Assembly: GCF_007993035.1 (NCBI RefSeq)
Contig: NZ_VOOS01000003.1
Span: forward strand, 399,501-463,500
Direction: 5' to 3'
Origin: Vicingus serpentipes
Lineage (GTDB): Bacteria; Bacteroidota; Bacteroidia; Flavobacteriales_E; Vicingaceae
DNA: 64,000 nucleotides
Made by a program: the position numbers and the translations under genes. Numbering within the stretch: position 1 is the stretch's first letter; every line of letters starts with the position of its first letter. The notes under the pieces are model-generated. The model did not search any database, was not told where the DNA came from, and saw only the letters and a list, made by a program, of their open reading frames with translations. Below are positions 7,658 to 26,378 of this stretch, in pieces.

Positions 7658-7691
7658 TTAGTTTTACGTTTTATAAATTACAAAATTTAAG

Positions 7692-9062
7692 ATGGAAATT
7701 ATAATCGTATTAGTATTTGTTTTAGGTTATTTAGCTATAACACTTGAACATAATTTAAAAATTGATAAACTAGTTCCAGCTGTAGCTATGATGGCAATTT
7801 GTTGGGCATTAATTGCTTTTGGTTTAGATGGTTTTCAATATTGGTTTGATTCTGCAAATCATGCTTTAATTGATGCTTTTTCTTCATTTGGCCATGAAGA
7901 AAAATTGCACTTAATGGAAGAAACACTCTTGCACCATTTAGGTAAAACTGCAGAGATTTTATTCTTCTTATTAGGAGCAATGACAATTGTGGAAATCATT
8001 GATTATTTTGATGGTTTCTCAACTTTTAAGACCTATATTAAAACAAAAAGTAAAACCAAACTTCTTTGGATATTCTCATTTTTAGCATTTATCTTATCTG
8101 CTATTATTGATAACTTAACTGCTACAATAGTTTTAATTACAATACTTCAAAAAATAATTAGCGACAAAGAAACTCGTATGTGGTTTGCTGGTTTAATTAT
8201 TATTGCAGCAAATGCTGGTGGAGCATGGTCTCCAATTGGTGATGTTACAACTACAATGCTTTGGATTGGTAACAAAGTTTCTACGGATATGTTAATTCAA
8301 TATTTAATTCTTCCTTCTTTATTATGTATGGCAGTTCCTTCGTTAATAGCTTCATTTATGAAGCCTTTTAAAGGTGATTTAACTGAATCTATTCAAGATA
8401 GTCCAGAAGAAGCCCATGATACTAAATATAGTCCAATAATGTTATATCTTGGTTTAGGTATGATATTATTTGTACCGGTATTCAAAACAATCACACATTT
8501 ACCTCCTTATGTAGGTATGATGTTATCTTTAGGTGTTGTATGTACCTTTGCTGAAATTTTTAGTACTAGACATTTTTCACTTACTTCTTTAAGTGATCAT
8601 TCTTCAGATGTTGGACATCATAGTCCTGTTCATAAATCATTATCTAAAATTGAAATGCCGAGTGTATTATTTTTCTTTGGAATTTTAATGGCTGTTGCAG
8701 CACTTGAAAGTTTAGGAATGCTATTCAATTTTGCAGAAAGTTTAAATACTACAATACCAAATTCTGACATAGTAGTTCTATTATTAGGAGTTGGTTCAGC
8801 TGTAATTGATAACGTTCCTTTGGTAGCAGCAAGTTTAGGTATGTTTCAAAATGAATTAAATGATCCACTTTGGCACTTTATCGCTTTCTCTGCTGGTACA
8901 GGGGGTAGTATGTTAATTATTGGTTCAGCTGCAGGTGTTGTAGCAATGGGAATGGAGAAAATATCATTCTTTTGGTATTTCAAAAAAATCTCTTGGTTAG
9001 CATTTATAGGTTTTGCAGTTGGTTCTGTTTCATTTATGATAATTAGAGGTTTTGTTGGTTAA
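7692..9062 (+). CDS. nhaD: Na+/H+ antiporter NhaD
   Basis: A 456-residue inner-membrane protein with about 12 hydrophobic segments, of the NhaD/ArsB ion-transporter superfamily. It should exchange external protons for internal Na+ or Li+, relevant in salt water. Visible family features are FSFLAFILSAIIDNLTATIVLITIL, in which the SAIIDNLTA core is the NhaD signature, the AANAGGAWSPIGDVTTTMLW block, and a second inverted-repeat half with GSAVIDNVPLVAASLGM and FSAGTGGSMLIIGSAAG. Charged His-rich loops (near residues 305-315) separate the halves. A strong terminator follows, so this gene ends its transcription unit. Confidence 0.92.
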   Translation: MEIIIVLVFVLGYLAITLEHNLKIDKLVPAVAMMAICWALIAFGLDGFQYWFDSANHALIDAFSSFGHEEKLHLMEETLLHHLGKTAEILFFLLGAMTIVEIIDYFDGFSTFKTYIKTKSKTKLLWIFSFLAFILSAIIDNLTATIVLITILQKIISDKETRMWFAGLIIIAANAGGAWSPIGDVTTTMLWIGNKVSTDMLIQYLILPSLLCMAVPSLIASFMKPFKGDLTESIQDSPEEAHDTKYSPIMLYLGLGMILFVPVFKTITHLPPYVGMMLSLGVVCTFAEIFSTRHFSLTSLSDHSSDVGHHSPVHKSLSKIEMPSVLFFFGILMAVAALESLGMLFNFAESLNTTIPNSDIVVLLLGVGSAVIDNVPLVAASLGMFQNELNDPLWHFIAFSAGTGGSMLIIGSAAGVVAMGMEKISFFWYFKKISWLAFIGFAVGSVSFMIIRGFVG

Positions 9063-9087
9063 CCTTAAAATTAAAAGTATATATATT

Positions 9088-9119
9088 AAAACCCTCATTT
9101 AAAAAAATGAGGGTTTTTT
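9088..9119 (+). terminator. intrinsic terminator after nhaD
   Basis: An inverted repeat AAAACCCTCATT (9088-9099) with its complement at 9106-9117, followed by T residues to 9119. It separates nhaD from the acyltransferase island. The A/T flanks could let it work in both directions. Confidence 0.85.
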
Positions 9120-9160
9120 GTATTTTGTAATTTTTAGAAAATGAAAAAGCAAATCAATAA

Positions 9161-10642
9161 ATGTTTTTTAACTCTTTACATTATCTAGTTTTTTTCCCTG
9201 TAGTAGTATTACTATATTTTTTCACGCCATCTAAATATAGATGGCTTTTACTATTGGTTGCCAGTTACTATTTCTATATGGTGTGGAAGCCAATTTATAT
9301 TTTATTAATTATTCTTTCAACGCTTATAGATTATTACTGTAGTGTTCAGATGGGTAAGATAGATTTAAAACCCAAAAGACGGCCTTATATCGCGGTTAGT
9401 ATTTTTTCGAATTTATTAATATTAGTTGCTTTTAAATACTTCAATTTTTTTAATACAGCTGCTTATGATTTAGCTGATTTATTAAACATGGAATACGCAG
9501 TTCCAATGTTTAATGTCATTTTGCCAATGGGAATTTCTTTTTACACCTTTCAAACCATGAGTTACTCAATTGATGTTTATCGAGGTGATATTAAACCTGA
9601 AACTCATTTTGGAAAGTTTGCACTTTATGTTACTTTTTTTCCTCAGTTAGTTGCAGGGCCAATAGAAAGAGCAAAGGACTTGTTATCTCAATTTCATTTT
9701 AAATATGAATATAATCATGATAGAGCAGTTTCAGGATTAAGGTTGATATTATGGGGATTGTTTAAAAAAATTGTTATAGCTGACCAATTAAGCGGAATGG
9801 TTTCTTATGTTTTTGATAATCCTGAAAATGCAAATGGATTTTCTGTAATATTTGCTTTAATTCTTTTTACCCAACAAATTTATTGTGATTTTTCTGGTTA
9901 TTCAGATATCGCCCAAGGTTCAGCTAGAGTTTTAGGGATAAGTCTTATGGATAACTTTAAATTTCCACTTTATGCTAAATCAATTGATGATTTATGGCGT
10001 AGATGGCATATTTCATTAGTAAAATGGTTTACAGATTATTTATACATTCCTTTAGGAGGAAGTAGAAAAGGAGTAAAAAGAAAATACTTGAATTTATTTA
10101 TCATTTTTGCGATATCAGGTTTATGGCATGGTTCAAATTGGACCTTTATTCTTTGGGGATTGTTTAATGGTATTTTTGTTATCTATTCTAGGTTATCAGC
10201 TCCTTTTAGAGAGAAGATAATTATTAACTTTAAAATAAATAAACTTCCTAAAATTAGATATTCACTTCAAATGATAAGCTCTATTAGTTTGTTTGCATCA
10301 ACTTGGATCTTTTTCTTAGCAGATAGTCTAAAAGAGTCTTTACTCTTAATTGAGAAGGTTGTATTTGACTGGGATAATGTTTTAAATAAAATTATCTATA
10401 ACATTGATGGTGCTAGACAATCTACTTTGTATTTAGGAAAAGAGTTTGAGTCTTTTCTGCTAATTATAATTTTTATAATTCTGTTTGAAATGATACAATG
10501 GAAGATGAGTAAAACTTCATTAGATAATTTTTTTATTAAAAAAGTCAGATGGCAAACTTGGAGTATTTATTTATTCATACTTTTTTCAATTATGTTTATG
10601 TCTAATATAGAAGAAGCGCCATTTATTTATTTTCAATTTTAA
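9161..10642 (+). CDS. MBOAT family O-acyltransferase, copy A
   Basis: A 493-residue polytopic inner-membrane protein of the MBOAT family (AlgI, PatA and DltB relatives), which moves acyl groups across the membrane to polysaccharide hydroxyls. Family signatures are LPMGISFYTFQTMSYSIDVY (about 121-140), FFPQLVAGPIERAKDL (159-173), YCDFSGYSDIAQG (241-253), WRRWHISLVKWFTDYLYIPLGGSRKG (279-304) and the presumed catalytic histidine in SGLWHGSNWTF (H323). The C-terminus is PFIYFQF, shared in form with the three other MBOATs nearby. The stop codon overlaps the next start (TAATG), which points to translational coupling with its SGNH partner. No matching promoter was found upstream. The donor and acceptor are unknown. 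Confidence 0.9.
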   Translation: MFFNSLHYLVFFPVVVLLYFFTPSKYRWLLLLVASYYFYMVWKPIYILLIILSTLIDYYCSVQMGKIDLKPKRRPYIAVSIFSNLLILVAFKYFNFFNTAAYDLADLLNMEYAVPMFNVILPMGISFYTFQTMSYSIDVYRGDIKPETHFGKFALYVTFFPQLVAGPIERAKDLLSQFHFKYEYNHDRAVSGLRLILWGLFKKIVIADQLSGMVSYVFDNPENANGFSVIFALILFTQQIYCDFSGYSDIAQGSARVLGISLMDNFKFPLYAKSIDDLWRRWHISLVKWFTDYLYIPLGGSRKGVKRKYLNLFIIFAISGLWHGSNWTFILWGLFNGIFVIYSRLSAPFREKIIINFKINKLPKIRYSLQMISSISLFASTWIFFLADSLKESLLLIEKVVFDWDNVLNKIIYNIDGARQSTLYLGKEFESFLLIIIFIILFEMIQWKMSKTSLDNFFIKKVRWQTWSIYLFILFSIMFMSNIEEAPFIYFQF

Positions 10643-11568
10643 TGAGAAAACATCAATTATATAAAGTATTATTTTTTCTATTAATAATTGTATTAATTGA
10701 TAGATCTTTAGGATTAATGGTTTCTAAATTGGCATTAAAATATAAGTTTGATAGAAGAATAGAACTATTAATTAATAATCAAATTGATAAAGACATACTA
10801 GTTTTGGGCTCTTCAAAAGCATTAAATGGTATAGATCCCCAAATTATTGAAAATAAAACAGGAAAATCGTGTTATAATTTAAGTTATAGCGGCTCAAATA
10901 TTGAATTTCATGAGACAATTCTAGACTTAATAATTCTCTCCAAAAATCATCCATCTACTTTAATTTATTGCATAGATGACCCAGGTTCATTAATTAAGTT
11001 TGATGGTATTGTAGTTTATAGAAAAGAAGAATTGTATCCATTTGTATATAATAATGAAATTAATAATATTGTTTCTCAAAAGCTTGATAAGTCAATTTTA
11101 GCATCGAAAATTTCATCTGTTTATCATCAAAATGTAAATCTCGTTACAGCTATAAAATATTTGTTGAGAGGAAAAGAAGTTCCTGATTATGAAATAAATA
11201 ATGTTGATAATTATGGTGCTAATATTATGATAGGCCACCAAGCAAAACATGAAAATATGAAGTTTGTGAATAGAAAATTTGTTTATGATACAAAATATGA
11301 GAATGATGAATATCGGAATGCATTTACTCGAATATTAGCAAAGTGTAAAGGGAATAATATTAACGTTAAACTGATTATAACACCATCTTTTGTTTCCTCC
11401 ACTATTGGCTTTAGAGATAGAATTAGTGAACTTTCGAAAGATACTTTACTTGTTTATGATTATTCCAATCAATTTACAAATAATGAATTGTTTTATAATT
11501 ATGAGCATCTTAATAAAAATGGAGCAACTAAATTTACAAGCTTAATAGCTGATGAATTAAATCTATAA
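10642..11568 (+). CDS. SGNH-like acyltransferase partner, copy A
   Basis: A 308-residue protein with an N-terminal membrane anchor (about 8-28) and a periplasmic SGNH-hydrolase-like domain. The nucleophile block is VLGSSKALNG (candidate Ser57), then a Gly-rich strand with SYSGSNIEFHETILDL, and the C-terminal block NYEHLNKNGA with candidate catalytic His289. The usual block V Asp three residues before His is Asn here (N286), as in the paralogue at 13924. Such proteins typically receive the acyl group from the paired MBOAT and place it on a glycan. The start overlaps the MBOAT stop by one base. I infer acyl transfer from the pairing; this protein alone would be recognised only as a DUF1574-like/SGNH protein. 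Confidence 0.75.
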   Translation: MRKHQLYKVLFFLLIIVLIDRSLGLMVSKLALKYKFDRRIELLINNQIDKDILVLGSSKALNGIDPQIIENKTGKSCYNLSYSGSNIEFHETILDLIILSKNHPSTLIYCIDDPGSLIKFDGIVVYRKEELYPFVYNNEINNIVSQKLDKSILASKISSVYHQNVNLVTAIKYLLRGKEVPDYEINNVDNYGANIMIGHQAKHENMKFVNRKFVYDTKYENDEYRNAFTRILAKCKGNNINVKLIITPSFVSSTIGFRDRISELSKDTLLVYDYSNQFTNNELFYNYEHLNKNGATKFTSLIADELNL

Positions 11569-11641
11569 AAGGACTTTGCATAGCAAGAAAAAATAACCGT
11601 TCTTTGAGTACTTTATCAAAAAAAATAGCTGATTTTAGAAA

Positions 11642-12427
11642 ATGGAATTATTAAATAAGAATATTGTTTTTATGCACATTCCTAAGAATGGAGGAACAAC
11701 ACTTGACTCTATTTTAGATAAAAATTTTTCAGTTAATAATACATTTAATGTTAAAGTTATTGGTAATAGTGAGTTAAATATTTCTGATTTACTTAATTTA
11801 AACGAAGAAGAATTAAATAATATAAAACTATTAAAAGGTCATGTGCCTTTTGGTATTCATCAAAAACTTAGAAATCAATTTAATTACATAACACTTTTAA
11901 GAAACCCTGTTGATAGAATTGTATCTTACTATTATTACGTGCTAAGTTTACCTTCTCATAGACTATATGAACGAGTGATGAAAGAAAAAATGTCTTTATA
12001 TGATTTCGCTACAAAAATAAATCAAGGAGACGTTAATAATGCTCAAATTAGAGTGATTAGTGGAATAGAAGATACTCCTGAAAATATGTTGTCAAAAGCT
12101 ATAGATAACATAGACAATAATTTTTCATTTGTAGGATTGGTTGAAAAGTATGATGAGTCACTTCTTCTTCTTCAAGAACTTTATAAATTTAAAATTCCAT
12201 ATTATCGATCATTAAATAAAACTCCTAAAAGATCTAAGTTAGATGAAATTGATAAAAATACTTTAGTAGCAATAAAAGATTTAAATCAAGGAGATATTGA
12301 TTTATATTCAATAATGGAGAAAAAGTTCAATAAAGAATTAGAAGAAGTTGATTTGTTAAACTTTAAATTAAAAAAGTTAAGAAGTGTAAATAAGTTATAT
12401 AATTTTTACGCAGGGTTTAAGTCCTAA
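11642..12427 (+). CDS. sulfotransferase (PAPS-dependent, Sulfotransfer_2-like)
   Basis: A 261-residue soluble protein with the 5'-phosphosulfate loop MHIPKNGGTTLDSIL (about 11-25, including Lys15) and the 3'-phosphate motif LLRNPVDRIVSYYYY (85-99, including Arg87 and Ser95). This pattern is that of the carbohydrate sulfotransferases related to heparan sulfate 2-O-sulfotransferase. It would move sulfate from PAPS to a sugar hydroxyl or lipid-linked glycan in the cytoplasm. It sits exactly between the two copies of a duplicated MBOAT-SGNH unit, on the same strand, with 73 bases before it and 24 after. No PAPS synthesis gene is in the window. The family is well supported; the glycan acceptor is inferred from context only. 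Confidence 0.82.
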   Translation: MELLNKNIVFMHIPKNGGTTLDSILDKNFSVNNTFNVKVIGNSELNISDLLNLNEEELNNIKLLKGHVPFGIHQKLRNQFNYITLLRNPVDRIVSYYYYVLSLPSHRLYERVMKEKMSLYDFATKINQGDVNNAQIRVISGIEDTPENMLSKAIDNIDNNFSFVGLVEKYDESLLLLQELYKFKIPYYRSLNKTPKRSKLDEIDKNTLVAIKDLNQGDIDLYSIMEKKFNKELEEVDLLNFKLKKLRSVNKLYNFYAGFKS

Positions 12428-12451
12428 CTTTCATTTCAGGAGTAAAAGATA

Positions 12452-13924
12452 ATGTTTTTTAATTCGATACATTTTTTATTTTTTTTACCAATAGTAGTAT
12501 TTCTATACTATTCATTTAAGCCAAAATATAGGTGGATAATATTGCTAATAGCAAGTTATTACTTCTATATGGTATGGAAGCCAATCTACATTTTACTAAT
12601 AATTCTTTCAACTCTTATAGATTATTATTGTAGTTTAAAGATGGGGAATTATGAAGAAAAAAAACTCCGTAAGCCATACGTAATTATTAGTATCGTCAGT
12701 AATTTACTTATACTTATTACTTTTAAATACTTTAATTTTTTTAATATCGCTGCCCATGATTTAGCTAGCTTACTTGGTATAGAGTACGCTGTTTCTTACC
12801 TAAATGTGCTTTTGCCAATGGGAATTTCTTTTTATACATTTCAAACAATGAGTTATTCTCTTGATGTTTATAAAGGGAATATAAAACCAGAAAAACATCT
12901 AGGGAAATTTGCATTATATGTAACATTTTTTCCTCAGCTTGTTGCTGGACCTATTGAAAGAGCTAAAAATTTATTGTCTCAGTTTCATTTTGATTTTAAA
13001 TACAACCATGAACAAACTGTTTCAGGTGTTCGATTAATAATGTGGGGGTTGTTTAAAAAAATTGTAATTGCTGATCAATTGAGTAGTATGGTTAATCATG
13101 TATATGGTAATCCAGAGGCTAGCCAAGGGTTTTCAATTTATTTTGCATCTTTATTGTTTGCTCAACAAATCTATTGTGATTTTTCAGGTTACTCAGACAT
13201 AGCTCAAGGATCTGCACGAATTATGGGGGTTAAGCTAATGGATAATTTTAATTTCCCTTTTTATGCTACTTCATACAATAATTTTTGGGGTAGATGGCAT
13301 ACTTCTTTAATGCAATGGTTTAGAGATTATATAATGTTCCCATTAGTTCGAAAAAAATGGAAATGGCAATCAGTATTTATGACTGTTTTTTTAATAAGTG
13401 GTTTATGGCATGGTGCTGATTGGACATTTATAATATGGGGAATAATAAATGGATTTTTTGTAATCTATTCAAAAGCATCTTCAGATTTTAGAGCTAGAAT
13501 GATTGTAAAGTTAGGTATAGATAAATATCCTAAAACCAGACATTTTCTTCAAATACTAGCTGTTGTAAATATTTTTTCAATATTTGGTTTGTTTTTCCCT
13601 GCTAGAAGTATGGCTGATGCTAAAATATTAATTGCAAATTATTTTAAAGGTTGGTCAGATTTAGTAGGGAATTTAATAGCTAATGAAAACGGGTTTAGGC
13701 AAGAGGTATTGTACTTAGGTAAAGATGTTGATACTTTTACCATAATAATTTTATTTTTTATACTTTTTGAAATAATACAATGGAAAATGAGTAAAAGTTC
13801 GGTAGATAATTTTTTCATTAATAAACCAAGATGGCAAGCATGGTCTATCTATTTATTCTTTATATTTTCAATAATAATAATGTCTAATATCGAGGAAACA
13901 CCATTTATTTATTTTCAATTTTAA
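12452..13924 (+). CDS. MBOAT family O-acyltransferase, copy B
   Basis: A 490-residue paralogue of the protein at 9161. Residues 1-270 match almost block for block (LPMGISFYTFQTMSYSLDVY, PQLVAGPIERAKNL, YCDFSGYSDIAQGSAR). The catalytic part diverges: FWGRWHTSLMQWFRDYIMFPL is followed by VRKKWKWQ where copy A has LGGSRKGVKRKY, and it is three residues shorter. The presumed catalytic His320 in SGLWHGADWTF is kept, as is the C-terminus PFIYFQF. The difference may change the acyl donor or acceptor. This start has one of the few clear Shine-Dalgarno sites in the window (AGGAG at 12438-12442, nine bases before ATG). The stop overlaps the next start as TAATG. Confidence 0.9.
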   Translation: MFFNSIHFLFFLPIVVFLYYSFKPKYRWIILLIASYYFYMVWKPIYILLIILSTLIDYYCSLKMGNYEEKKLRKPYVIISIVSNLLILITFKYFNFFNIAAHDLASLLGIEYAVSYLNVLLPMGISFYTFQTMSYSLDVYKGNIKPEKHLGKFALYVTFFPQLVAGPIERAKNLLSQFHFDFKYNHEQTVSGVRLIMWGLFKKIVIADQLSSMVNHVYGNPEASQGFSIYFASLLFAQQIYCDFSGYSDIAQGSARIMGVKLMDNFNFPFYATSYNNFWGRWHTSLMQWFRDYIMFPLVRKKWKWQSVFMTVFLISGLWHGADWTFIIWGIINGFFVIYSKASSDFRARMIVKLGIDKYPKTRHFLQILAVVNIFSIFGLFFPARSMADAKILIANYFKGWSDLVGNLIANENGFRQEVLYLGKDVDTFTIIILFFILFEIIQWKMSKSSVDNFFINKPRWQAWSIYLFFIFSIIIMSNIEETPFIYFQF

Positions 13925-14850
13925 TGACTAAGAGGAATATATATCGTTTATTATTATTTATAATTCTAATTATAATTATTGATCGTTCTTTAGGTTTCCT
14001 AATTTCAAATTATTCTTTAAAGTATAGGTTCGATAATCGTATAGGTTTACTTCTTAAAGATAGTCTGAATAAAGATGTTTTTATTATTGGATCATCAAGA
14101 GCTTTAAATGGGTATTCTCCTAAAGTTATAGAAGAAGAAACAAATTTTACATGTTACAATTTAGCTGTAAGTGGTTCAAATGTTGAGTTTCATGAAACTG
14201 TTTTGGATTTAATATTAAGTTCAAAGCACAAACCAAAAACCATCATATATAATTTGGATGATTGTGCTACATTAATGCAATTTAAAGGTCAAATTATTTA
14301 TCCTTTTGAACAACTATACCCTTATGTAGAAAATGATAAAATAAATAAAATTGTAGCAGAAAAAATGGATAAGAATTTATGGACAACTAAGTTTTCTTTA
14401 ACTTATAAGCATAATGTTAATTTTATTTCAGCAGTTAAGTATTTAAGAGGAGGAAAAGAAAAACCTTCGTTTGAAATAAACAATATTGATAAGTATGGTT
14501 CTAATTTAATGGAAGGAAAAGCTAAAGGTTTTGAAGATATGGTCTTCCAAAATAACAATCCGTATAAATTTGAGAAATCTTATAAACCATATCAGCAGTC
14601 TTTAGAAAACATCATTAATAAATGTAAATCAAATAATGTTAAATTAATTTTAGTAAATCCTCCAATCTTTTTTACTAAAAATAAAGGCTTTTTGGAAGAG
14701 GTATCTAAAATTTGTAATAACGATGCTGAAATAATAGATTATGCGGAGTTATTTGCATCCAATGATTATTTTTACAATCATGGCCATTTAAATAAAAAAG
14801 GAGCTATTGAGTTTTCTAAACAATTATCAAAAGCGTTAAATAAGAATTAA
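13924..14850 (+). CDS. SGNH-like acyltransferase partner, copy B
   Basis: A 308-residue paralogue of the protein at 10642 with identical length and layout. It has an N-terminal anchor (about 8-28) ending in IDRSLGFLIS, nucleophile block IIGSSRALNG (Ser57), the strand AVSGSNVEFHETVLDLIL, and the C-terminal block YNHGHLNKKGA with candidate His288. Asn replaces Asp three residues before that His, as in copy A. It probably faces the periplasm and completes acyl transfer started by MBOAT copy B. Translation is probably coupled to the MBOAT by the one-base overlap. The next MBOAT starts only four bases after this stop, so all are likely on one mRNA. Confidence 0.75.
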   Translation: MTKRNIYRLLLFIILIIIIDRSLGFLISNYSLKYRFDNRIGLLLKDSLNKDVFIIGSSRALNGYSPKVIEEETNFTCYNLAVSGSNVEFHETVLDLILSSKHKPKTIIYNLDDCATLMQFKGQIIYPFEQLYPYVENDKINKIVAEKMDKNLWTTKFSLTYKHNVNFISAVKYLRGGKEKPSFEINNIDKYGSNLMEGKAKGFEDMVFQNNNPYKFEKSYKPYQQSLENIINKCKSNNVKLILVNPPIFFTKNKGFLEEVSKICNNDAEIIDYAELFASNDYFYNHGHLNKKGAIEFSKQLSKALNKN

Positions 14851-14853
14851 GAA

Positions 14854-16269
14854 ATGGTATTTACTGCACCTTCATTTTTATTCTTTTTTTTACCGATAAC
14901 GCTCATCTTAAATTTTCTATTTCAGAAGTTTAAAATAAGAAATACCATTCTTTTAATTCTGAGTTTATTCTTCTACATTTTTGGTGAAGGAGAATTGGTT
15001 TTGCTAATGATAGGTTCGATTGCACTTAACTTTTATTTAGGTAAATGGATTGAAAAAAAACATTCCAAATTATCGATATCAGTTGGAGTTGCTATTAATT
15101 TAATATTATTAATAGTAAACAAGTATACCGGATTTATTATTGATAATCTCAATGTGTTTTTTGAAATTTTTGATTTCCCTTTAATTTCAAATATAGAAAT
15201 TAAACTTCCGGTAGGTATTTCATTTTATACATTTCAGAGTATTTCCTATTTAATAGATGTATATCGAAAAAATAATAAAGCTCAAAAAAGTTTTGTAGAC
15301 TTAGCACTTTATGTATCCTTATTTCCGCAGTTAATTGCAGGTCCAATTGTACGATATAAAGATGTTGCATATCAGTTACAAAAAAGAATTCTTCATATAA
15401 AAAAGTTTAATGTTGGAGTTGAAAGATTTATAATTGGGTTAGCTAAAAAAGTAATCATTTCAAACTCATTAGCTTTAGTAGCTGATTATATTATGGATGC
15501 CGATATGAATAAGCTGGATGCATCAACAGCTTGGTTGGGTATAATATTATATTCATTACAAATTTATTTTGACTTCTCGGGTTATTCAGATATGGCTATA
15601 GGTTTGGGTAAAATGTTAGGCTTTGATTTTTTAGAGAACTTTAATTTCCCTTATGCATCAAAATCTATAAGAGAATTTTGGAGACGTTGGCATATTTCGT
15701 TAAGTAACTGGTTTAGAGATTACCTCTATATTTCATTAGGAGGTAATCGTAATGGTAACTTTAAAACCTATTTAAATTTATTTATAGTATTTTTTTTAAC
15801 GGGCTTATGGCATGGGGCTAGTTGGAATTTTGTTTTATGGGGAATGATACATGGAGTATTTATTGTAATTGAGCGTTTAGGATTTGATAAAATTATTGAT
15901 CGATTAAAAATTTTAAGAAATATTTACACCCTTTTTGTTGTAATGATAGCTTGGATATTTTTTAGAATAGAGACATTTTCAGATGCTATTAATTACATTT
16001 CAATAATGTTTAGCGGAACAACGAACCCTAATCATTATACCTTTAATATGTTTTTATCTACTGAAATTATCTTTGTATTAATAGTAGGAATAATACTATC
16101 TTTTAATGGATTAACCCTTTTTTATAATAAATTTTTAATCACAGATAATCAGTTACTTAACTTTACATATAAATCAATTAAAACAATAAGCCTTCTTTTC
16201 ATATTTGTTTATTGTATTATGAATGTTGCTTCAGGTAGTTATAATCCTTTTATCTATTTTAGATTTTAA
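14854..16269 (+). CDS. MBOAT family O-acyltransferase, copy C (AlgI-like)
   Basis: A 471-residue polytopic membrane acyltransferase, not a recent copy of A or B; it is closer to the AlgI-type pattern. Motifs are LPVGISFYTFQSISYLIDVYR (118-138), LFPQLIAGPIVRYKDV (156-171), IYFDFSGYSDMAIGLGKMLGF (237-257), EFWRRWHISLSNWFRDYLY (274-292) followed by ISLGGNRNG, and TGLWHGASWNFVLWG with presumed catalytic His320. It ends NPFIYFRF. Its partner is the AlgX-like protein that starts on the last base of this stop codon. It should carry an acyl group, most often acetyl in this family, across the inner membrane for attachment to a glycan. Confidence 0.92.
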   Translation: MVFTAPSFLFFFLPITLILNFLFQKFKIRNTILLILSLFFYIFGEGELVLLMIGSIALNFYLGKWIEKKHSKLSISVGVAINLILLIVNKYTGFIIDNLNVFFEIFDFPLISNIEIKLPVGISFYTFQSISYLIDVYRKNNKAQKSFVDLALYVSLFPQLIAGPIVRYKDVAYQLQKRILHIKKFNVGVERFIIGLAKKVIISNSLALVADYIMDADMNKLDASTAWLGIILYSLQIYFDFSGYSDMAIGLGKMLGFDFLENFNFPYASKSIREFWRRWHISLSNWFRDYLYISLGGNRNGNFKTYLNLFIVFFLTGLWHGASWNFVLWGMIHGVFIVIERLGFDKIIDRLKILRNIYTLFVVMIAWIFFRIETFSDAINYISIMFSGTTNPNHYTFNMFLSTEIIFVLIVGIILSFNGLTLFYNKFLITDNQLLNFTYKSIKTISLLFIFVYCIMNVASGSYNPFIYFRF

Positions 16270-17567
16270 TGAGTAAAATAATTAAATATATAATTATAGG
16301 AATTTGTATTACTTCTGTACTCTTTTTTTTCTTAAAAAGGTTTTTTGCAACTGATATTACTCTTTTTATAGCTTTAACTATAGCAGTTGCTGTTTCGATA
16401 ATATTATATAAAAAGAAACAATTAAACTTTACGTTTAATCAAACACTTTTGGTTTTTAGTTTTGTGTCAATTTTATTTATTCCTTTTTTTGGAGAAAAAC
16501 AAAATGAAAGTTTAGAAAATAGAAGTCTTGAACAATTTCCTGAATGGCGTTGGTCTAATGTTTGGAAGTTTTTTAGAGATTATCAAAATTACTTTAATGA
16601 CAGATTTACTTTAAAAAATGAGCTGGTAGCTTTTTATGGAGAATTAAAATATGATCGCCTTAAACTAAACAATCTTACATCTCAGGTTGTTTTTGGAAAA
16701 GAAGGATGGATGTTTTTTAATGAAAAAAAAGCATTAGATAATATATCTATTGAATTTACTTTGCAAGAGCTAAAGCGTATTAATTATAATTTAACGCTTA
16801 TTACCATTTGGTTTGAAGAGCATGGAATTAAATATTACTTAACATTTCCTCCATCAAAGCCAAGAGTTCACAATGAAAAAGCCCCTGATTTTCTTAACGA
16901 AAGATTAACCTATTCTTCTTCAGACCAGCTATTTGAATATCTTAAATTAAATTCTAGATATAATTTTATTAATTACGTTGATGAATTAAGAAAAGCTAAA
17001 AAAGATAATCCTGTTTACCTAAAATATGATACTCACTGGAATGAAAGAGGGGCTTATTTTGGTTATAAAAAAATATTAGATGTCCTTAATAAGGATTTCC
17101 CCAAATTACATCCTTATGAGTTGAGTGATTTTAATATTAAGAAACAAACTATGCAAACAGGTGATTTACTTCATTTATTAGGGTATAAAACTCAGTATGC
17201 TTATTTAGAGGATGCTTTTACTCCTAAAGATGGAAACCTACCCCAATTAACCTATACAACAAGATTTCCTGATAACCCCGATAATGTATTTCAAGTTTTT
17301 GAAATGCAAAACGATACTTTAGATATCGATATTTATGTAATTAGAGATAGTTATTCTGAAAATTTAAAAAAATTCTTGTCACTTAATTTTAATAAATCGG
17401 TTTATGATTGGACACCTAGAATTTCAATTCCACGAATTTTAGAGTATAAACCCAACATAATTGTACACGAAATTTTAGAAAGATTTAATTATGAATACTT
17501 TAATCTTCCTCCTGAAATTGAAAATGATACAGCTTTTGTTAATCGTTTTAATTTTGAAGATTTTTAA
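16269..17567 (+). CDS. AlgX/AlgJ-like SGNH O-acetyltransferase
   Basis: A 432-residue membrane-anchored protein. Two or three N-terminal hydrophobic segments (about 5-25, 28-47 and 57-75) precede a periplasmic AlgX-type SGNH domain. It has the family opener LENRSLEQFPEW with DRFTLKNELV, then VVFGKEGWMFF (140-150), the catalytic Asp/His pair in KYDTHWNERGAYFGY (D254, H256), and the nucleophile block VIRDSYSENL (S361). All three presumed catalytic residues are present. It is the partner of MBOAT copy C through a TAATG overlap and should place the acyl group on the polysaccharide. It overlaps the convergent MBOAT gene D by four bases. The target glycan is unknown. Confidence 0.87.
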   Translation: MSKIIKYIIIGICITSVLFFFLKRFFATDITLFIALTIAVAVSIILYKKKQLNFTFNQTLLVFSFVSILFIPFFGEKQNESLENRSLEQFPEWRWSNVWKFFRDYQNYFNDRFTLKNELVAFYGELKYDRLKLNNLTSQVVFGKEGWMFFNEKKALDNISIEFTLQELKRINYNLTLITIWFEEHGIKYYLTFPPSKPRVHNEKAPDFLNERLTYSSSDQLFEYLKLNSRYNFINYVDELRKAKKDNPVYLKYDTHWNERGAYFGYKKILDVLNKDFPKLHPYELSDFNIKKQTMQTGDLLHLLGYKTQYAYLEDAFTPKDGNLPQLTYTTRFPDNPDNVFQVFEMQNDTLDIDIYVIRDSYSENLKKFLSLNFNKSVYDWTPRISIPRILEYKPNIIVHEILERFNYEYFNLPPEIENDTAFVNRFNFEDF

Positions 17568-18967
17568 AATTTAAAGTAAATAAAAGGATTAAATCCAGAA
17601 GCAAATAATTCGCCTAAAGAAAGTAAAAACAAACACATTATAGAAACGAAAGAACCGACTATTTTTATTTTGTTTGAAGGCATTGATGAAAGGTGATTAT
17701 TTAATTGAACTTCAAAAAAAGCACCAATAAAGGACAATAGAGCAGCTGTAAAAAGTGTGAAATAAAATTTATTTGTAAATAATTCTGACCAATTATTCAT
17801 TTGTAAATCTGTATTATTTATGGCTTGAATATAATTTAAAGCTTGAGAAAGGTTGTCAACTCTAAATAATAACCATCCTAAAGACACAATTACAAACGTT
17901 GATAATATTGTAATAAAAGAAGGTAGTTTAGAGGTTAGTTTTGAGAGAAATAATCGTTCTAAAACTAAAAAGATTCCATGATAAGCTCCCCAAACTATAA
18001 AGTTCCAACTTGCTCCATGCCAAAATCCTGAAATTAAAAAAACTAATATAAGGTTGAAATAAGTTCTAACTTCACTTTTTTGATTTCCACCTAAAGGGAT
18101 ATATAAATAATCTCTCATCCAATTACTTAGTGTAATGTGCCATCTTTTCCAGAACTCGGTAATATTTTTAGCTATGTATGGAAAATTGAAATTTTCAGGA
18201 AATGTAAATCCCATCATTTTACCTAACCCAATAGCCATATCTGAATAGCCAGAGAAGTCAAAGTAAATCTGAAAGGAATAAGCTGTAAGACCTAAAAGAA
18301 CTGCAAAAGTTGATAGTTCGGTAATAGGTAAAATAAAAATAGCATCTACAGTTTCTCCTAAAACATTAGCGATTAATATTTTCTTACCTAAACCAATTAT
18401 AAATCGTCGTAATCCTAAATATACTGTGTTATAATTTATTGTTTTAAAGCGATCAGTAATTTGATTGCTTATTTCTTTAAATCGAACAATAGGCCCAGCA
18501 ATAAGTTGAGGAAATAAGACAACATAGAGAAGATATTTGCTAAAATTTACTTGAAGCTCGCCATTACTTCTTTTTAAATCAACTAGGTAGCTTATTTTTT
18601 GGAAAGTAAGAAATGAAATACCAATGGGTAAGGCAACTCTTAAAAAGGTTTCGTTACTGCTTGTGTAAGTTAAAAAGTTTTCGATAAAAAAATTATAGTA
18701 CTTAAAATATAGAAGTAAACCTACATTACTTAATATTCCTATATAATAAATAAACTTAAGATTGTATTTTAAATAGAATAATGCACATATGTAATCTAAA
18801 ACACAACTTAATATTAAAATAAAAATAAAAGAAGGAGCTCCCCACCAATAGAACAATAAACTAGAAAATATTATCCAAGAGTTTTTTAACTTTTGAGGAA
18901 TAAGATAATATACCAAAAAGAAAATTGGAGCGAAGTATAATAAAAATATAATGCTACTAAAAACCAT
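17564..18967 (-). CDS. MBOAT family O-acyltransferase, copy D (AlgI-like)
   Basis: A 467-residue polytopic membrane acyltransferase on the opposite strand from copies A-C. Motifs are LPIGISFLTFQKISYLVDLKR (113-133), LFPQLIAGPIVRFKEI (151-166), IYFDFSGYSDMAIGLGKMMGF (234-254), EFWKRWHITLSNWMRDYLYIPLGGNQ (271-296) and SGFWHGASWNFIVWG with presumed catalytic His317. It ends NPFIYFKF. It is the last gene of a three-gene minus-strand operon behind an AlgX-like protein and a GT-C-like protein; its start overlaps the previous stop by one base. Similarity to copy C is clear, so C and D look like one subfamily and A and B another. Confidence 0.92.
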   Translation of the reverse strand: MVFSSIIFLLYFAPIFFLVYYLIPQKLKNSWIIFSSLLFYWWGAPSFIFILILSCVLDYICALFYLKYNLKFIYYIGILSNVGLLLYFKYYNFFIENFLTYTSSNETFLRVALPIGISFLTFQKISYLVDLKRSNGELQVNFSKYLLYVVLFPQLIAGPIVRFKEISNQITDRFKTINYNTVYLGLRRFIIGLGKKILIANVLGETVDAIFILPITELSTFAVLLGLTAYSFQIYFDFSGYSDMAIGLGKMMGFTFPENFNFPYIAKNITEFWKRWHITLSNWMRDYLYIPLGGNQKSEVRTYFNLILVFLISGFWHGASWNFIVWGAYHGIFLVLERLFLSKLTSKLPSFITILSTFVIVSLGWLLFRVDNLSQALNYIQAINNTDLQMNNWSELFTNKFYFTLFTAALLSFIGAFFEVQLNNHLSSMPSNKIKIVGSFVSIMCLFLLSLGELFASGFNPFIYFKF

Positions 18968-20481
18968 TATTTTAAAATTAATAAAAGTCCCAAATTTTCA
19001 CTTTTTTTGAGCTCAAACATAATATTGTTGTTGGTTAATGTTTCTTCAATTTCTTTAAATGGTAATGATATATCATTAACTAAGATAACTTGAGATAAGT
19101 TATTTTCCTTTAAAAAATTCATAGCTGTTACTCTTGCTCTTCTTGTTGCATATTTAAATTTAAAACCATTGTTGTTACATAAATACTCAGCGGTTCCACA
19201 TAACGATTCGCCCCAAACAATATCGAAATCACATAGCTCAGAATAATAATCATTAGCATCATTATAGTTTAAATGCTCTTTGTTTATGTATCTATTAATA
19301 CCATCAACACACATTGTTATTGCAAGAGCAAAAGGAAGAAGATAAAGGTGTTTAGAATAAGAAAACAATTTTGCATTTCTAAAGGTATAGATGCATATTC
19401 CAATTAAAATCATTCCTGAAGCGAAAGGGTAGTAGTCCATTTGTATTTTATGAAATATAAAAAATGAGTAATTTAATAAAGGAAATAATAATATTATTAT
19501 GAATTGAAAAATCGATAACAACCTATATCGCAATTGAATTGCTAATACTAATAGCGATACTAAATGAACAACAAACCAAGGTTGGTTAAGATTTAAATAA
19601 AATTTTACATTATCCATTACTTCAAATAAGCCATGTGAAGCAATATCATGGCTTGGGTAAGTTGGAACAAAAGGATTCCCTAAGAGTAAATAGGCATATA
19701 TAAAATAAGGAGTGATTCCAATTATAGAATAGCTAAAGCATTTTAAAAGAAAATTTCTTAATTCTTTAAATTCTTGTTTTTTTATTTTTTTAATTACTTC
19801 AGGAAATATAATAGCAACAAAAGGAATTAACATTAATAAGTTGACTAGCCTAAAATTTGCAGATAGAAATATAAGTAATAAAGAAATGTGAGGTTTTTTA
19901 AAAGCTATTAATCCAGCAGTAATAAATAAACAAAAAGTAAAAGCCAAAGAATTTATTCTTGCTAATTCACTTAAAAATGGTGTAGAAATGCTGAATAAAA
20001 TGATAATAAAAGAGAGGGGTATTAGTATGTTATTTTTATTAGTTGATGGGTAAGCATTTTTAAAAAATAAAAATGGGATTAAAAAAGAGAAAAATATTAC
20101 TAAAAAGGGAAAGCTCTTTTTTCTATATTCTATAGGAATCCAGCTAATTAAAAATGAAGTTCCAGGAGGGTATTGGTTTATAATTTTGTAATTCGTTTTT
20201 TCAGAAAAATGATAGGCATAAGGCATTATCATCCATCTATATTCTAATTCAGGAATATTATTCTTTTTTAATTCAGTTACTAAATTCTTAAGGTAAGGTC
20301 TGGGAGAGTGATCATTAAATGTATTATTGTTTGAAAAAGCCTTAGCTAAATTTAGATATCCAAATTCATCACAATCAGCAGGAAGTTTTTCATGGTTATC
20401 ACTAAATCTAAGTGTTGCAGCTATAGAAAAAAGTAAGCTTAGAATAAATACATGAAATATATAGTTTTTTTTACTGTTCAT
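18967..20481 (-). CDS. multi-spanning membrane glycosyltransferase-like protein (GT-C fold)
   Basis: A 504-residue protein with about 10 hydrophobic segments. The first lumen-facing loop after the N-terminal helix carries LPADCDEFGYLNLAKAF, where the acidic pair resembles the GT-C catalytic motif of ArnT/PMT-type enzymes that use polyprenyl-phosphate sugars. A later loop has INQYPPGTSFLISW, also typical of that superfamily. The C-terminal 100 residues are soluble and face the periplasm. ATG 20481 is preferred over 20517 because it gives an 11-base instead of 47-base overlap with the upstream gene and a sensible N-terminus (MNSKKNYIFHVF). It lies between an AlgX-like protein and an MBOAT, so it may add a sugar that is then acylated. 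The exact family is uncertain. Confidence 0.6.
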   Translation of the reverse strand: MNSKKNYIFHVFILSLLFSIAATLRFSDNHEKLPADCDEFGYLNLAKAFSNNNTFNDHSPRPYLKNLVTELKKNNIPELEYRWMIMPYAYHFSEKTNYKIINQYPPGTSFLISWIPIEYRKKSFPFLVIFFSFLIPFLFFKNAYPSTNKNNILIPLSFIIILFSISTPFLSELARINSLAFTFCLFITAGLIAFKKPHISLLLIFLSANFRLVNLLMLIPFVAIIFPEVIKKIKKQEFKELRNFLLKCFSYSIIGITPYFIYAYLLLGNPFVPTYPSHDIASHGLFEVMDNVKFYLNLNQPWFVVHLVSLLVLAIQLRYRLLSIFQFIIILLFPLLNYSFFIFHKIQMDYYPFASGMILIGICIYTFRNAKLFSYSKHLYLLPFALAITMCVDGINRYINKEHLNYNDANDYYSELCDFDIVWGESLCGTAEYLCNNNGFKFKYATRRARVTAMNFLKENNLSQVILVNDISLPFKEIEETLTNNNIMFELKKSENLGLLLILK

Positions 20482-21595
20482 GCATTTGTTCAATTTGTTC
20501 AAAAAAACCAAACCCAAAATCTATCAATGATGGAGCTGATGAAAGAATTATAATGAGATCTCTATTAACAATATCTTTAGATTGAATTATATTTGAAGTT
20601 GGACCTATTTTATTTTTATCTATATCAAATTTAGTTTTGTTGTAATACCACAACTCTGAATTTTGAGTAAAAGAATTTTTTGGAATATCAAGGTCATAAA
20701 AGCTCCAGCAGAAACTATCAGAAATGAAAAGAACATTAAGTTTATTTTGAACATTAAAATTAAAAATAGGGTAAGCCATTTTTGGAGATTCTAATTTCTC
20801 TAGTAAATTTAAAGAAGGTAAATAATCATCATCACTAAATTTTATGTTAGCTGTCAAATAAATAGAATCTAATATCAATGAAGACGTTTCTTTTTTGGTT
20901 ATTGTGTTTAACTTGTTAAATAAAATATTAGCTGAATTGTATGCCCCAAAAGTACTCCAATGAGCTCCATATTTTGGTATTAAAGGGTATTTAGAAGTTG
21001 TCTTTAATTCATTAAAAATAGAGTCAAAATCAATAATATTTATTCTACCTTCTAGTAGATTTTTTTTATAATAATTGTGATTGGTAGCTTCAACTTCAAT
21101 TGGTTTTGGAATTAATTTTTCGGAATAATAATTTGCTTTGTTCGGTGCGAAGCATATTAGCAAGGGAATATTGAGTGAATCTAATTTCGTTTTAGTTTTT
21201 AAAATCGAGGTTATTTTGCTGGTTAAAACTTCATCATTTAAATAATCTTCACCTCTAATTGCTTTTATATAAGTAGGGTCAAAAATGTAATTGTCTTTAC
21301 CTAAAGTTAAAATCGTATTTATTTTTTTATGAATAGTATAATCAATTTGATTTCGAACTTTAATTAGTTCAGCTCTAAAAGGTGTTTGATGTTTTAAATA
21401 AATTGCAGTGCAGTCTTGATAGTTTTGATTTAGAAAACTAGAGGTTGTTAATTTAGGCATTGTGCTTAATAGGTATGCACCCTGAAGGCCTCCTAGTTTA
21501 AATGGGCTAAAACTAAATTGAAGCATTGGTAGAAAAACAATAACTAAAAATAAGTAAAGAAATACCTTGATTATTTTAGTTTGTTTTTTATTCAT
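20471..21595 (-). CDS. AlgX/AlgJ-like SGNH acyltransferase partner of MBOAT D
   Basis: A 374-residue protein with one N-terminal membrane anchor (about 8-30) and a periplasmic AlgX-type domain. Matching blocks are ILTLGKDNYIFDPTYI (95-110), FAPNKANYYSEKLIP (149-163), KYGAHWSTFGAYNSAN (208-223) and the nucleophile block LFISDSFCWSF (S294). The His of the catalytic pair is kept (H212), but the Asp two residues before it, present at D254 in the protein at 16269, is Gly210 here. It is first in a minus-strand operon with the GT-C-like protein and MBOAT D. The family is well supported. Activity is less sure because of the Gly, although other residues could fill the role. Confidence 0.78.
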   Translation of the reverse strand: MNKKQTKIIKVFLYLFLVIVFLPMLQFSFSPFKLGGLQGAYLLSTMPKLTTSSFLNQNYQDCTAIYLKHQTPFRAELIKVRNQIDYTIHKKINTILTLGKDNYIFDPTYIKAIRGEDYLNDEVLTSKITSILKTKTKLDSLNIPLLICFAPNKANYYSEKLIPKPIEVEATNHNYYKKNLLEGRINIIDFDSIFNELKTTSKYPLIPKYGAHWSTFGAYNSANILFNKLNTITKKETSSLILDSIYLTANIKFSDDDYLPSLNLLEKLESPKMAYPIFNFNVQNKLNVLFISDSFCWSFYDLDIPKNSFTQNSELWYYNKTKFDIDKNKIGPTSNIIQSKDIVNRDLIIILSSAPSLIDFGFGFFEQIEQMHEQ

Positions 21596-21709: not shown

Positions 21710-22450
21710 ATGATTAACAATAAAAAAATAGTTGTTGTTTTACCAGCATATAATGCTGCTTTAACTCTTGAGAAAACTTATAATGAAATACCATTTGATA
21801 TTGTTGATGATGTAGTTTTAGTAGATGATAAAAGCAAGGATGATACTATTAAAAAAGGTAAAGAAATAGGTATTAAACATATCGTTTCACATGACGTGAA
21901 TAAAGGATATGGAGGGAATCAAAAATCTTGTTACAATAAAGCACTAGAGTTAAATGCAGATATTGTTATCATGCTTCATCCAGATTACCAATATACGCCA
22001 AAGCTTATACATTCAATGTCTTATTTAATCGCTAATGACTTGTATCATGTTGTTTTAGGATCAAGAATTTTAGGTAAAGGAGCTTTAAAAGGAGGGATGC
22101 CAATATATAAATATATAGCTAACAGAATTTTAACTCTCACACAAAATATATTAATCAACCAAAAATTATCAGAATACCATACTGGGTATAGAGCTTTTTC
22201 TAAAGAAGTTTTAGAAAAAATTAAATATGAAAGAAACTCTGATGATTTTGTGTTTGATAATCAAATGCTTTCACAAATTGTATACGCAGGATATGAAATA
22301 GCTGAAGTTACTTGTCCTACTAAATATTTTGACGAAGCATCGTCAATAAATTTAAAGCGAAGTTCAATTTATGGACTAGGAGTATTGTGGGTTTCTTTAA
22401 CGCACTTTTTTAATAAAATGGGGTTTGGTAAATCTAAACTCTATCACTAA
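21710..22450 (+). CDS. glycosyltransferase family 2 (polyprenyl-phosphate sugar synthase-like)
   Basis: A 246-residue GT-A enzyme with VVVLPAYNAALTLEKTYNEIP at the N-terminus, the metal/nucleotide acidic motif VLVDDKSKDDT (about 36-46), the DPM1-type segment NKGYGGNQKSCYNKAL, and MLHPDYQYTP in place of the common DxD block. Later comes YHTGYRAFS. The length and these blocks resemble dolichol-phosphate mannose synthase-like enzymes that make a polyprenyl-phosphate sugar in the cytoplasm. This fits its one-base overlap with the following GT-C-like membrane protein, which could use such a donor on the far side of the membrane. The sugar is unknown. Confidence 0.82.
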   Translation: MINNKKIVVVLPAYNAALTLEKTYNEIPFDIVDDVVLVDDKSKDDTIKKGKEIGIKHIVSHDVNKGYGGNQKSCYNKALELNADIVIMLHPDYQYTPKLIHSMSYLIANDLYHVVLGSRILGKGALKGGMPIYKYIANRILTLTQNILINQKLSEYHTGYRAFSKEVLEKIKYERNSDDFVFDNQMLSQIVYAGYEIAEVTCPTKYFDEASSINLKRSSIYGLGVLWVSLTHFFNKMGFGKSKLYH

Positions 22451-25522: not shown

Positions 25523-26378
25523 TCTTATTTGTATAGTGATTTTTAAAAGTATCATTTACTAACTCACCATTTTCATTGGTAAGCCATGAGCTAGAGCTAT
25601 TTGCAGTTTTTATATAAAAAAGTTGTTCTTCGGTTAAAGCTTTTGGATTAATGTACCATCCCCCATGTCTAGCAGTGTATGGTTTATTAGTTCTGATGCC
25701 ACTTAAAAAGTTATGATTATTTCTTTTATAATTTGGTCTGTACATCGCAAAAGTTGTATCTATAGATGATAGATAATGCTTGTTAATTTTATTTTGCCAA
25801 AATTGATTTTCCCAATTGATTATATTTTTTTTATTTGGATTATAATCAGGAATATCATCTAAATAAAGACTAAAACCGACTTTAGTAATATCTTTATTAG
25901 TATTCAAAAGTTTAAGAAAAACAGATAAGTAGTTGCTTGGCGTTTTTTCATGAGGAACGATATCTGCATCTGTAACTATGTGGTATCCTTTTGAATATTT
26001 TTCAAACAATTCTTTGTTTTTCCAAAATACAAGATGACCAAAATTTTCTCTCAATTTATGTATAGTTACGTTGTTGTTTTTTTCTATTTCATCAAAATAA
26101 GTAAGTAGGGGTATATAGGTAGAGTTATTATCGATTATAACAATATCTTGGTGTTTGTTTAATAATAAAAAATCTACTAATTGCTTCAAATGGAATAATT
26201 GGTTATAACTAATAATGATAACAGGAATGTTTTTAGGATTCCTTATTTGATTTCTTAGATTAGAGTCAAAAATATTGTTAAACCAAATTTTTATTTTCCA
26301 TTTTAATAAATTAGAATCTTCATTAAGCTTATTTCTATGAAAATGATATTTAGCTTTAATTTTAGAAAGTAAACTCAT
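25515..26378 (-). CDS. glycosyltransferase-like protein (GT-A fold)
   Basis: A 287-residue protein. An amphipathic N-terminus (residues 1-45) precedes IPVIIISYNQLFHLKQLVDFLL, then IVIIDNNST, LRENFGHLVFW and YHIVTDADIVPHE, where D-A-D is the likely metal-binding motif. The region GIRTNKPYTARHGGWYINP follows, and the last 30 residues are polar. It resembles GT2-like enzymes but lacks a closer match that I can name. It sits between two GT2 genes in the polysaccharide operon, with a 4-base overlap upstream and an 8-base overlap downstream. Confidence 0.7.
   Translation of the reverse strand: MSLLSKIKAKYHFHRNKLNEDSNLLKWKIKIWFNNIFDSNLRNQIRNPKNIPVIIISYNQLFHLKQLVDFLLLNKHQDIVIIDNNSTYIPLLTYFDEIEKNNNVTIHKLRENFGHLVFWKNKELFEKYSKGYHIVTDADIVPHEKTPSNYLSVFLKLLNTNKDITKVGFSLYLDDIPDYNPNKKNIINWENQFWQNKINKHYLSSIDTTFAMYRPNYKRNNHNFLSGIRTNKPYTARHGGWYINPKALTEEQLFYIKTANSSSSWLTNENGELVNDTFKNHYTNKND

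Follow-up and report, generated by a model that had tools for sequence, protein, structure and literature searches.

Why should one short stretch of a bacterial chromosome encode four MBOAT acyltransferases, each with an SGNH- or AlgX-like partner of its own? To our knowledge, most characterised MBOAT-SGNH systems have one MBOAT. The question arises from a 64,000-nucleotide stretch of the Vicingus serpentipes genome (NCBI RefSeq assembly GCF_007993035.1, contig NZ_VOOS01000003.1, contig positions 399501–463500; referred to here as the window), a genome assembled to 2.92 Mb in 34 contigs. The stretch encodes a Por secretion tail domain as well as a PorX-like protein that combines PglZ with a response regulator, in keeping with Bacteroidota. 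The four genes lie in an island placed between a gene at 7692–9062, which we take to encode an NhaD-like antiporter, and a polysaccharide operon. We consider it probable, at roughly two chances in three, that this island supplies extracytoplasmic O-acylation for a locus whose product is an O-polysaccharide or similar surface glycan exported through Wzm/Wzt, and that it consists of separable modules acting in the periplasm and at more than one site. This reading is carried by direct observations of the gene content, the intact key motifs of the MBOATs, the fidelity with which partner type follows the MBOAT, the recurrence of the modules beside operons of the same kind, and the lack of the island at the corresponding position in three congeneric genomes.

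The four MBOATs and their partners

The island is made of two convergent runs whose ends meet at 17564–17567. The plus-strand run reads MB1-SG1-sulfotransferase-MB2-SG2-MB3-AX3 and the minus-strand run AX4-membrane protein-MB4, the numbers denoting pairs 1 to 4. All four MBOATs (MB1, 9161–10642, plus strand, Pfam MBOAT 111.4 bits; MB2, 12452–13924, plus strand, 77 bits; MB3, 14854–16269, plus strand, 107.7 bits; MB4, 17564–18967, minus strand, 112.4 bits) are intact genes that exceed the Pfam cut-off of 27 bits, so that the four MBOATs in 12.4 kb of the preliminary description are real, with only MB4 on the minus strand. Each contains WHG, and their tails read PFIYFQF, PFIYFQF, PFIYFRF and PFIYFKF. 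These shared motifs had been singled out; they are present but not unusual, as WHG occurs in 155/155 and a C-terminal FxYxxF in 152/155 members of an MBOAT set gathered by similarity to the island four. The tail is therefore generic, and we rejected a shared PFIYF ending as a special bond among the island MBOATs.

In the phylogenetic comparison of MBOATs and partners that the preliminary description had proposed, MB1 is the sister of MB2 (Shimodaira–Hasegawa-like approximate likelihood ratio test, SH-aLRT, 100), while MB3 and MB4 fall into separate clades, each with its counterparts from the genomes G061 and G226 described below (SH-aLRT 99 in both cases). BLASTP identity is 64% for MB1 and MB2, 44% for SG1 and SG2, and 42% for MB3 and MB4, each of which is 33–38% identical to MB1 and MB2. 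Judged by sequence, pair 1 is a diverged tandem copy of pair 2, with the sulfotransferase gene now lying between the copies. The G226 equivalent of MB2 is not resolved as sister of MB1/MB2, though its partner groups with SG1 and SG2 (SH-aLRT 95). The tree rows are best search matches rather than a random sample, and a truncated MB1 copy (L072) was excluded. Within 9161–13924, identity between the MB1 and MB2 genes is patchy at the DNA level (0.49 to 0.84 per 100 columns) and overall is higher for MB1/MB2 (0.695) than for SG1/SG2 (0.590), a pattern that gene conversion between the MBOAT copies could give.

The partners belong to two classes, and all four have an N-terminal hydrophobic segment. 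SG1 (10642–11568, plus strand), in which this segment is a membrane anchor, belongs to no Pfam family and carries an NYEH motif, and its AlphaFold model (predicted local distance difference test, pLDDT, 77.8) finds DltD (6o93, 3bma and 7dxm) as its best PDB fold matches in Foldseek, with E 4.5e-07 for 6o93 and a TM-score of only 0.45 by query length. SG2 (13924–14850, plus strand), 44% identical to SG1 as given above, matches DUF1574 below the Pfam cut-off, and neither protein receives a DltD assignment in Pfam or NCBIfam. AX3 (16269–17567, plus strand) scores 70.3 bits against the Pfam ALGX family (PF16822, cut-off 26.5), has a DTHW motif, and by sequence is closest among solved proteins to PatB1 (5v8d) and then AlgJ (4o8v). 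AX4 (20471–21595, minus strand), with GAHW at the corresponding position, reaches 24.9 and so falls just below the same cut-off, which its G226 counterpart passes at 35.2.

The SGNH gene lies directly downstream of the MBOAT gene in pairs 1–3. The preliminary description assigned a partner to each MBOAT, and this holds for all four, except that the fourth is not adjacent: a membrane-protein gene (18967–20517, minus strand) separates MB4 from AX4. Mispairing was considered for pair 4 and rejected, since AX4-like and MB4-like genes are adjacent in G011 and the complete triad is kept in G061 and G226. Across a tree of 69 MBOATs there is one change between DltD-like and AlgX-like partners over the 61 labelled rows, with pair 4 taken as AlgX-like; this count leaves out eight rows without a recognised partner, one of which (L013) has its partner upstream. 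When all 69 rows are used, with those eight included and MB4 labelled separately, the labels change 7 times, where shuffled labels average 24.4. Partner type thus follows MBOAT phylogeny, which indicates that MBOAT and partner evolve as units. An 810-residue MBOAT frame in L061 was considered as an MBOAT-SGNH fusion and rejected, having no SGNH profile match.

The genome has eight MBOAT genes (a profile search gave nine matches, two of which are pieces of one frame), and the other four sit at loci away from the island. Random placement of eight genes put four of them inside a 9.8-kb span in 3 of 200,000 simulations. The clustering of the four MBOATs is therefore beyond chance, and tandem duplication accounts for one of the four. 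One of the distant loci of this genome (L052, C4:254000–270000) contains, at 7240–12896, a single MBOAT gene and after it a pair of AlgX-like genes (426 and 448 amino acids), between which lies a 526-residue gene with a weaker AlgX-like profile match and no Pfam family.

How unusual is such an array? An MB1/MB2 profile retrieved 80 named loci, some of them cut by contig ends; of these, 70 have a single MBOAT, 5 have two and 3 have three, while in 2 no MBOAT was called, so the earlier statement that a locus usually has one MBOAT is right as a rule but has exceptions. Three MBOAT-SGNH pairs occur in a row in Flavobacterium proteolyticum (L223) and in a Saprospiraceae metagenome-assembled genome (L192, in which the first MBOAT is cut by the contig end). 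In 60 related genomes, counted by eye among the matches listed, no more than two MBOATs lie within 15 kb outside the window, and a literature search on titles and the beginnings of abstracts returned no description of a comparable multi-pair island. In Bacillus anthracis, passages of one report describe two MBOATs, PatA1 and PatA2, acting on one wall polysaccharide (PMC7759979). Loci with one pair are thus common, and there are arrays of three. A wholly new system is not supported by the count of four pairs, and the uniqueness is smaller than was proposed, whereas the core inference of a glycan-decoration island stands; the notable part is the modular recurrence of components that are largely of known kinds.

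Recurrence of the modules beside Wzm/Wzt operons

We divided the island into module A (MB2-SG2, duplicated as MB1-SG1), module B (MB3-AX3) and module C (AX4-membrane protein-MB4). The genomes compared were found by searching with the island proteins and do not form a random sample. Module B has next to it a Wzm/Wzt operon that includes a large family 2 glycosyltransferase (GT2) of one kind in seven genomes from five genera and two families (the window genome, G061, G015, G021, G026, G011 and G226), and the link to a glycan operon is thus no accident of the window; the surface-glycan role first suggested for the island is supported by this. Of these seven, four also carry module A there (window, G021, G026, G226) and three module C (window, G061, G226), all three modules being found together in the window and G226.

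The arrangements are recognisably of one type. In G021 and G026, which belong to another genus, an MBOAT-SGNH-MBOAT-AlgX run converges on two family 4 glycosyltransferases (GT4), a ligase-like gene, Wzm, Wzt and a two-domain GT2. A third genus is represented by G061, whose contig starts inside MB3: here MB3-AX3 converges on an operon leading from GT2 to Wzt (74% identical), Wzm (76%) and WcaJ (75%), beyond which come MB4 (64%), the membrane protein (46%) and AX4 (45%), together with a relative of the gene at 22450. G226, from the other family, has the order GT4, GT4, ligase-like, WcaJ-like, Wzm, Wzt, two GT2s, AX3, MB3, SG2, MB2, followed by the 22450-like gene, AX4, two copies of the membrane protein, and MB4. 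MB3-AX3 lies beside GT2, Wzt and Wzm in G011, and in G015 (contig C7) it converges on a longer GT2, Wzt and Wzm with two GT4s and a ligase-like gene beyond. G032 and G035 contribute fragments with AX4 and its neighbouring genes. A search with AX3 (AlgX type) gave 12 matches in 46 genomes of the family, and the six best (E 4e-43 or better: window, G061, G021, G026, G011 and G015:C7) are all beside the operon, with the MBOAT-AlgX pair converging on its Wzm, Wzt and two-domain GT2 genes. Outside the family, the MB3-clade locus of G226 likewise has the operon, which overall stands beside 7 of the 15 MB3/AX3-type loci read.

The site itself looks different elsewhere in the genus. In three genomes of the same genus (G001 and G003 complete, G002 as far as the contig end), the interval between nhaD and porX is taken up by another glycan operon and has no MBOAT; the MBOATs of these genomes, among the matches listed, are on other contigs. 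Searches with AX3, AX4 and the window Wzt (E 1e-60) gave nothing in these three genomes. A contig scan with SG1 alone as query found no relative. According to the preliminary description, absence or random scatter of the island in close relatives would count against it. The island is indeed absent from this site in its own genus, but it is not randomly scattered, as the gene set recurs in other genera. Its G+C content is 0.24–0.28 across the locus against 0.31–0.32 in the flanks, and lowered G+C is typical of exchangeable surface-glycan loci.

Mechanism, catalytic residues and alternative readings

In the mechanism we propose, each MBOAT would charge the tyrosine in its C-terminal FIYF.F tail with an acyl group, for which acetyl taken from acetyl-CoA is the likeliest candidate; the tail tyrosine would pass the group to the active-site serine of that MBOAT's own partner, and the partner would transfer it, in the periplasm, to the glycan. 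The module C membrane protein would probably add a polyprenyl-phosphate-linked sugar, perhaps made by the GT2 encoded at 21710, and the MB4/AX4 pair would acylate this sugar. Separate modules would modify separate sugars or positions, and sulfation by the sulfotransferase would precede export and take place in the cytoplasm. We infer acetyl as the group transferred, a glycan as the acceptor, one site per pair, and the glycosyltransferase activity.

Several observations weigh against the periplasmic multi-site reading. Six weaker AX3 matches (E 2e-39 or worse: G031, G015:C12, G068, G028, G036 and G030) are without the operon, two of them on short contigs (G068, 4.9 kb; G036, 12.8 kb), as are the MB3-clade loci of G047 and G045 outside the family. 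The operon is thus beside none of the 8 more distant loci, so the link is limited to the closer relatives, although this division was recognised only in hindsight. Except in G061, the exporters are 25–41% identical to those of the window and Wzt is short, about 250–270 amino acids; these are operons of one kind, not operons for one glycan. SG1 has no relatives at E 1e-3 in G061, G032, G035 or G011, so module A is dispensable, and G011 carries its MB4-AX4 pair on a separate contig that lacks the membrane protein next to the pair. This protein (18967–20517) has no Pfam family in any of its six members and no PDB relative by profile. The AlphaFold model of AX4, built from three sequences, reached a pLDDT of only 39 and was not used, and the Asp of the classical Ser-His-Asp triad is missing in three of the four partners (SG1, SG2 and AX4).

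This last point can be followed across the families. AX3 has both DTHW and DS motifs, and its counterparts have DTHW (G226, G061, G021 and G026) or DSHW (G011); the Asp is present in all six MB3-clade partners with a visible motif, a seventh locus having no readable one. In AX4 a Gly replaces the catalytic Asp, PKYGAHWS being common to the window, G226, G061 and G032, and the Asp is missing in all ten MB4-clade loci read (7 Gly, 3 Ser). The AX4-type proteins nevertheless keep the His in 11/11 and the Ser in 10/11, and D255 and D257 are invariant in all 11. In SG1, SG2 and the G226 partner that groups with them, Asn replaces the Asp of DxxH, a position occupied by Asp in 63, Asn in 10 and other residues in 10 of 83 DltD-like partners, a count that left out those scoring 60 or less or outside 280–420 amino acids; Ser and His are kept in all 83. 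For comparison, the DxH motif comprises D174/H176 in AlgX and D190/H192 in AlgJ, and D174 is required by AlgX in vivo, according to passages of PMC4148444, while a Ser-His dyad reportedly suffices for many SGNH esterases of family CE2 in those of PMC9487903. The missing Asp therefore proves no inactivity, and the activity of such partners is a prediction.

The same residues underlie an alternative in which the array is partly non-catalytic, SG1, SG2 and AX4 (which lack the block-V Asp) serving as scaffolds or delivery proteins and AX3 alone acylating the glycan. Alginate offers a precedent, having one MBOAT and two SGNH proteins, of which AlgX alone is thought to modify the polymer directly (in passages of PMC9487903). 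We nevertheless regard this alternative as quite unlikely, given that the Ser and His are conserved, that two other Asp residues are invariant in AX4-type proteins, that dyad enzymes are reported from CE2 and that every partner has an MBOAT of its own. Less likely again is plain redundancy, in which tandem duplication produced the array and the pairs have no separate specificities. The 64% and 44% identities of the tandem MB1/MB2 and SG1/SG2 would fit it, but MB3 and MB4 belong to clades apart from MB1/MB2, are paired with different partner families and each have distinct counterparts in G061 and G226, and SG1/SG2 have diverged further than MB1/MB2.

A somewhat stronger contender, though still an unlikely one, holds that the pairs serve different envelope polymers or glycoconjugates (the O-polysaccharide, but also a side glycan, a lipid-linked sugar or a glycoprotein) and stand together only as cassettes gathered in variable surface loci. 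The separation of module C from B in G011 would be expected on this view, as would the four further MBOAT genes elsewhere in the genome, the usual occurrence of pairs singly (in 70 of the 80 named loci) and the eight more distant MBOAT-AlgX pairs away from such operons. Set against it is the recurrence beside related operons of A with B (window, G021, G026, G226), of B with C (window, G061, G226) and of all three (window, G226), which is above what loose accumulation would give, albeit in a non-random sample of genomes. We favour O-acylation of the exported glycan by several modules, each with its own route. Modules with two partner folds that recur beside related glycan operons amount to a natural test of partner and site specificity, and of the way in which bacteria exchange patterns of surface-glycan acylation. 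Concrete targets are the AlgX subfamily that lacks the Asp and, next to AX4, the membrane protein without a family.

Neighbouring genes and known acylation systems

The membrane protein of module C, 516 amino acids long and polytopic by hydropathy, resembles GT-C glycosyltransferases by topology only. Its six members share an invariant C-D-E-x-G-Y block, and it occupies the same position between AX4 and MB4 in G061 (one copy) and G226 (two copies, in tandem at 16561–19537 of L264). It is rare, occurring in 3 of 395 genomes of the class with the window genome included; G061 and G032 carry it yet are missing from those matches, presumably because they lie outside that sample. We know of no intervening membrane glycosyltransferase-like gene in the Bacillus PatA1/PatA2-PatB1 system. 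It is possible, though clearly less likely than not, that the AX4-membrane protein-MB4 triad is an undescribed periplasmic machine coupling glycosylation to acylation: a new GT-C-like family would add a polyprenyl-phosphate-borne sugar, and an AlgX-type transferase without the DxH Asp, using D255 or D257 or a Ser-His dyad, would acylate it. Together with modules A and B, the triad would then give the ABC-exported glycans of Bacteroidota an acylation code in three layers that can be exchanged.

Between pairs 1 and 2 lies the gene for a sulfotransferase of the 3′-phosphoadenosine 5′-phosphosulfate type (11642–12427, plus strand; Pfam Sulfotransfer_2, 39.1 bits, cut-off 22), which carries PKNGG and RNPVDRIVSYY motifs. 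In G040 (L062, 6286–13099) a distant sulfotransferase (24% identity) is found one gene away from an MBOAT-AlgX-MBOAT run, so a sulfotransferase close to MBOATs is not unique to the window.

Beyond AX4 come a GT2 (21710–22450, plus strand; Pfam Glycos_transf_2), which is probably a polyprenyl-phosphate-sugar synthase (best NCBIfam relatives AglJ and PpgS, both far below the cut-off), and a membrane protein of a glycopolymer-formation family (22450–23646, plus strand; NCBIfam NF046093, E 3.4e-41, 141 bits against a cut-off of 150), probably a GT-C enzyme. The GT2 protein is 93–94% identical to copies in G035 and G032, from another genus, where the adjoining genes are 47–65% identical and glutamate dehydrogenase, taken for comparison, 78–79%. 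Recent horizontal transfer was not accepted as proven by this, as the DNA identity of the GT2 gene is 82–83%, a value that makes strong constraint possible. The minus strand then encodes a two-domain GT2 (23636–25555; Pfam), whose counterparts elsewhere are convergent with the MB3-AX3 module, followed by Wzt (33198–34472; exporter ATPase with Pfam ABC_tran and a C-terminal Wzt_C domain), Wzm (34472–35338; exporter membrane subunit, Pfam ABC2_membrane), WcaJ (35343–36695; initiating undecaprenyl-phosphate glucose phosphotransferase, NCBIfam TIGR03023, 427.2 bits, cut-off 410.75), an O-antigen ligase-like protein with Wzy_C (36766–38043; Pfam PF04932, 80.5 bits) and two GT4 glycosyltransferases (38036–39133 and 39130–40146; Pfam). 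Relatives of the latter share loci with module B in G021, G026, G226, G061 and G015. With Wzm, a Wzt bearing its C-terminal domain, an initiating phosphoglycosyltransferase and glycosyltransferases, the locus has the parts expected of a Wzm/Wzt surface-polysaccharide locus, and its glycan is probably initiated by WcaJ and exported through Wzm/Wzt.

The island shares features with several known systems and differs from each. Like PatA/PatB, the Gram-negative paradigm of such pairs (PMC12148441), it combines a separate SGNH protein with an MBOAT that has the catalytic His and a C-terminal hexapeptide, the FxYxxF tail, whose Tyr accepts the acyl group and makes the tail of PatA an acyl-Tyr shuttle. 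PatA/PatB is, however, one pair acting on peptidoglycan, whereas here several pairs with two partner classes stand beside a Wzm/Wzt operon. The likeness to AlgI with AlgJ/AlgX lies in AX3, a member of the AlgX family with the DxH kept, and in AX4 as a more distant member; in passages of PMC4148444 and PMC9487903 the alginate system has one MBOAT with two SGNH proteins, in contrast to one MBOAT per partner and an AX4 without the catalytic Asp. MB1 is nearest to DltB among solved proteins and the SG1 model resembles DltD, but the tyrosine tail is on the island MBOAT itself and not on a DltX microprotein. For dltA, dltC and dltX there is no room between the island's open reading frames, where the gaps are 3 to 114 bases, proteins of fewer than 100 amino acids elsewhere not having been scanned. 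The Bacillus system of PatA1/PatA2 with PatB1 differs in having two MBOATs and a Gram-positive secondary cell-wall polysaccharide as its target; yet, on the passages of PMC7759979 and PMC9487903 concerned, it likewise devotes more than one MBOAT to one surface polysaccharide, and PatB1 is the nearest relative of AX3 among solved proteins.

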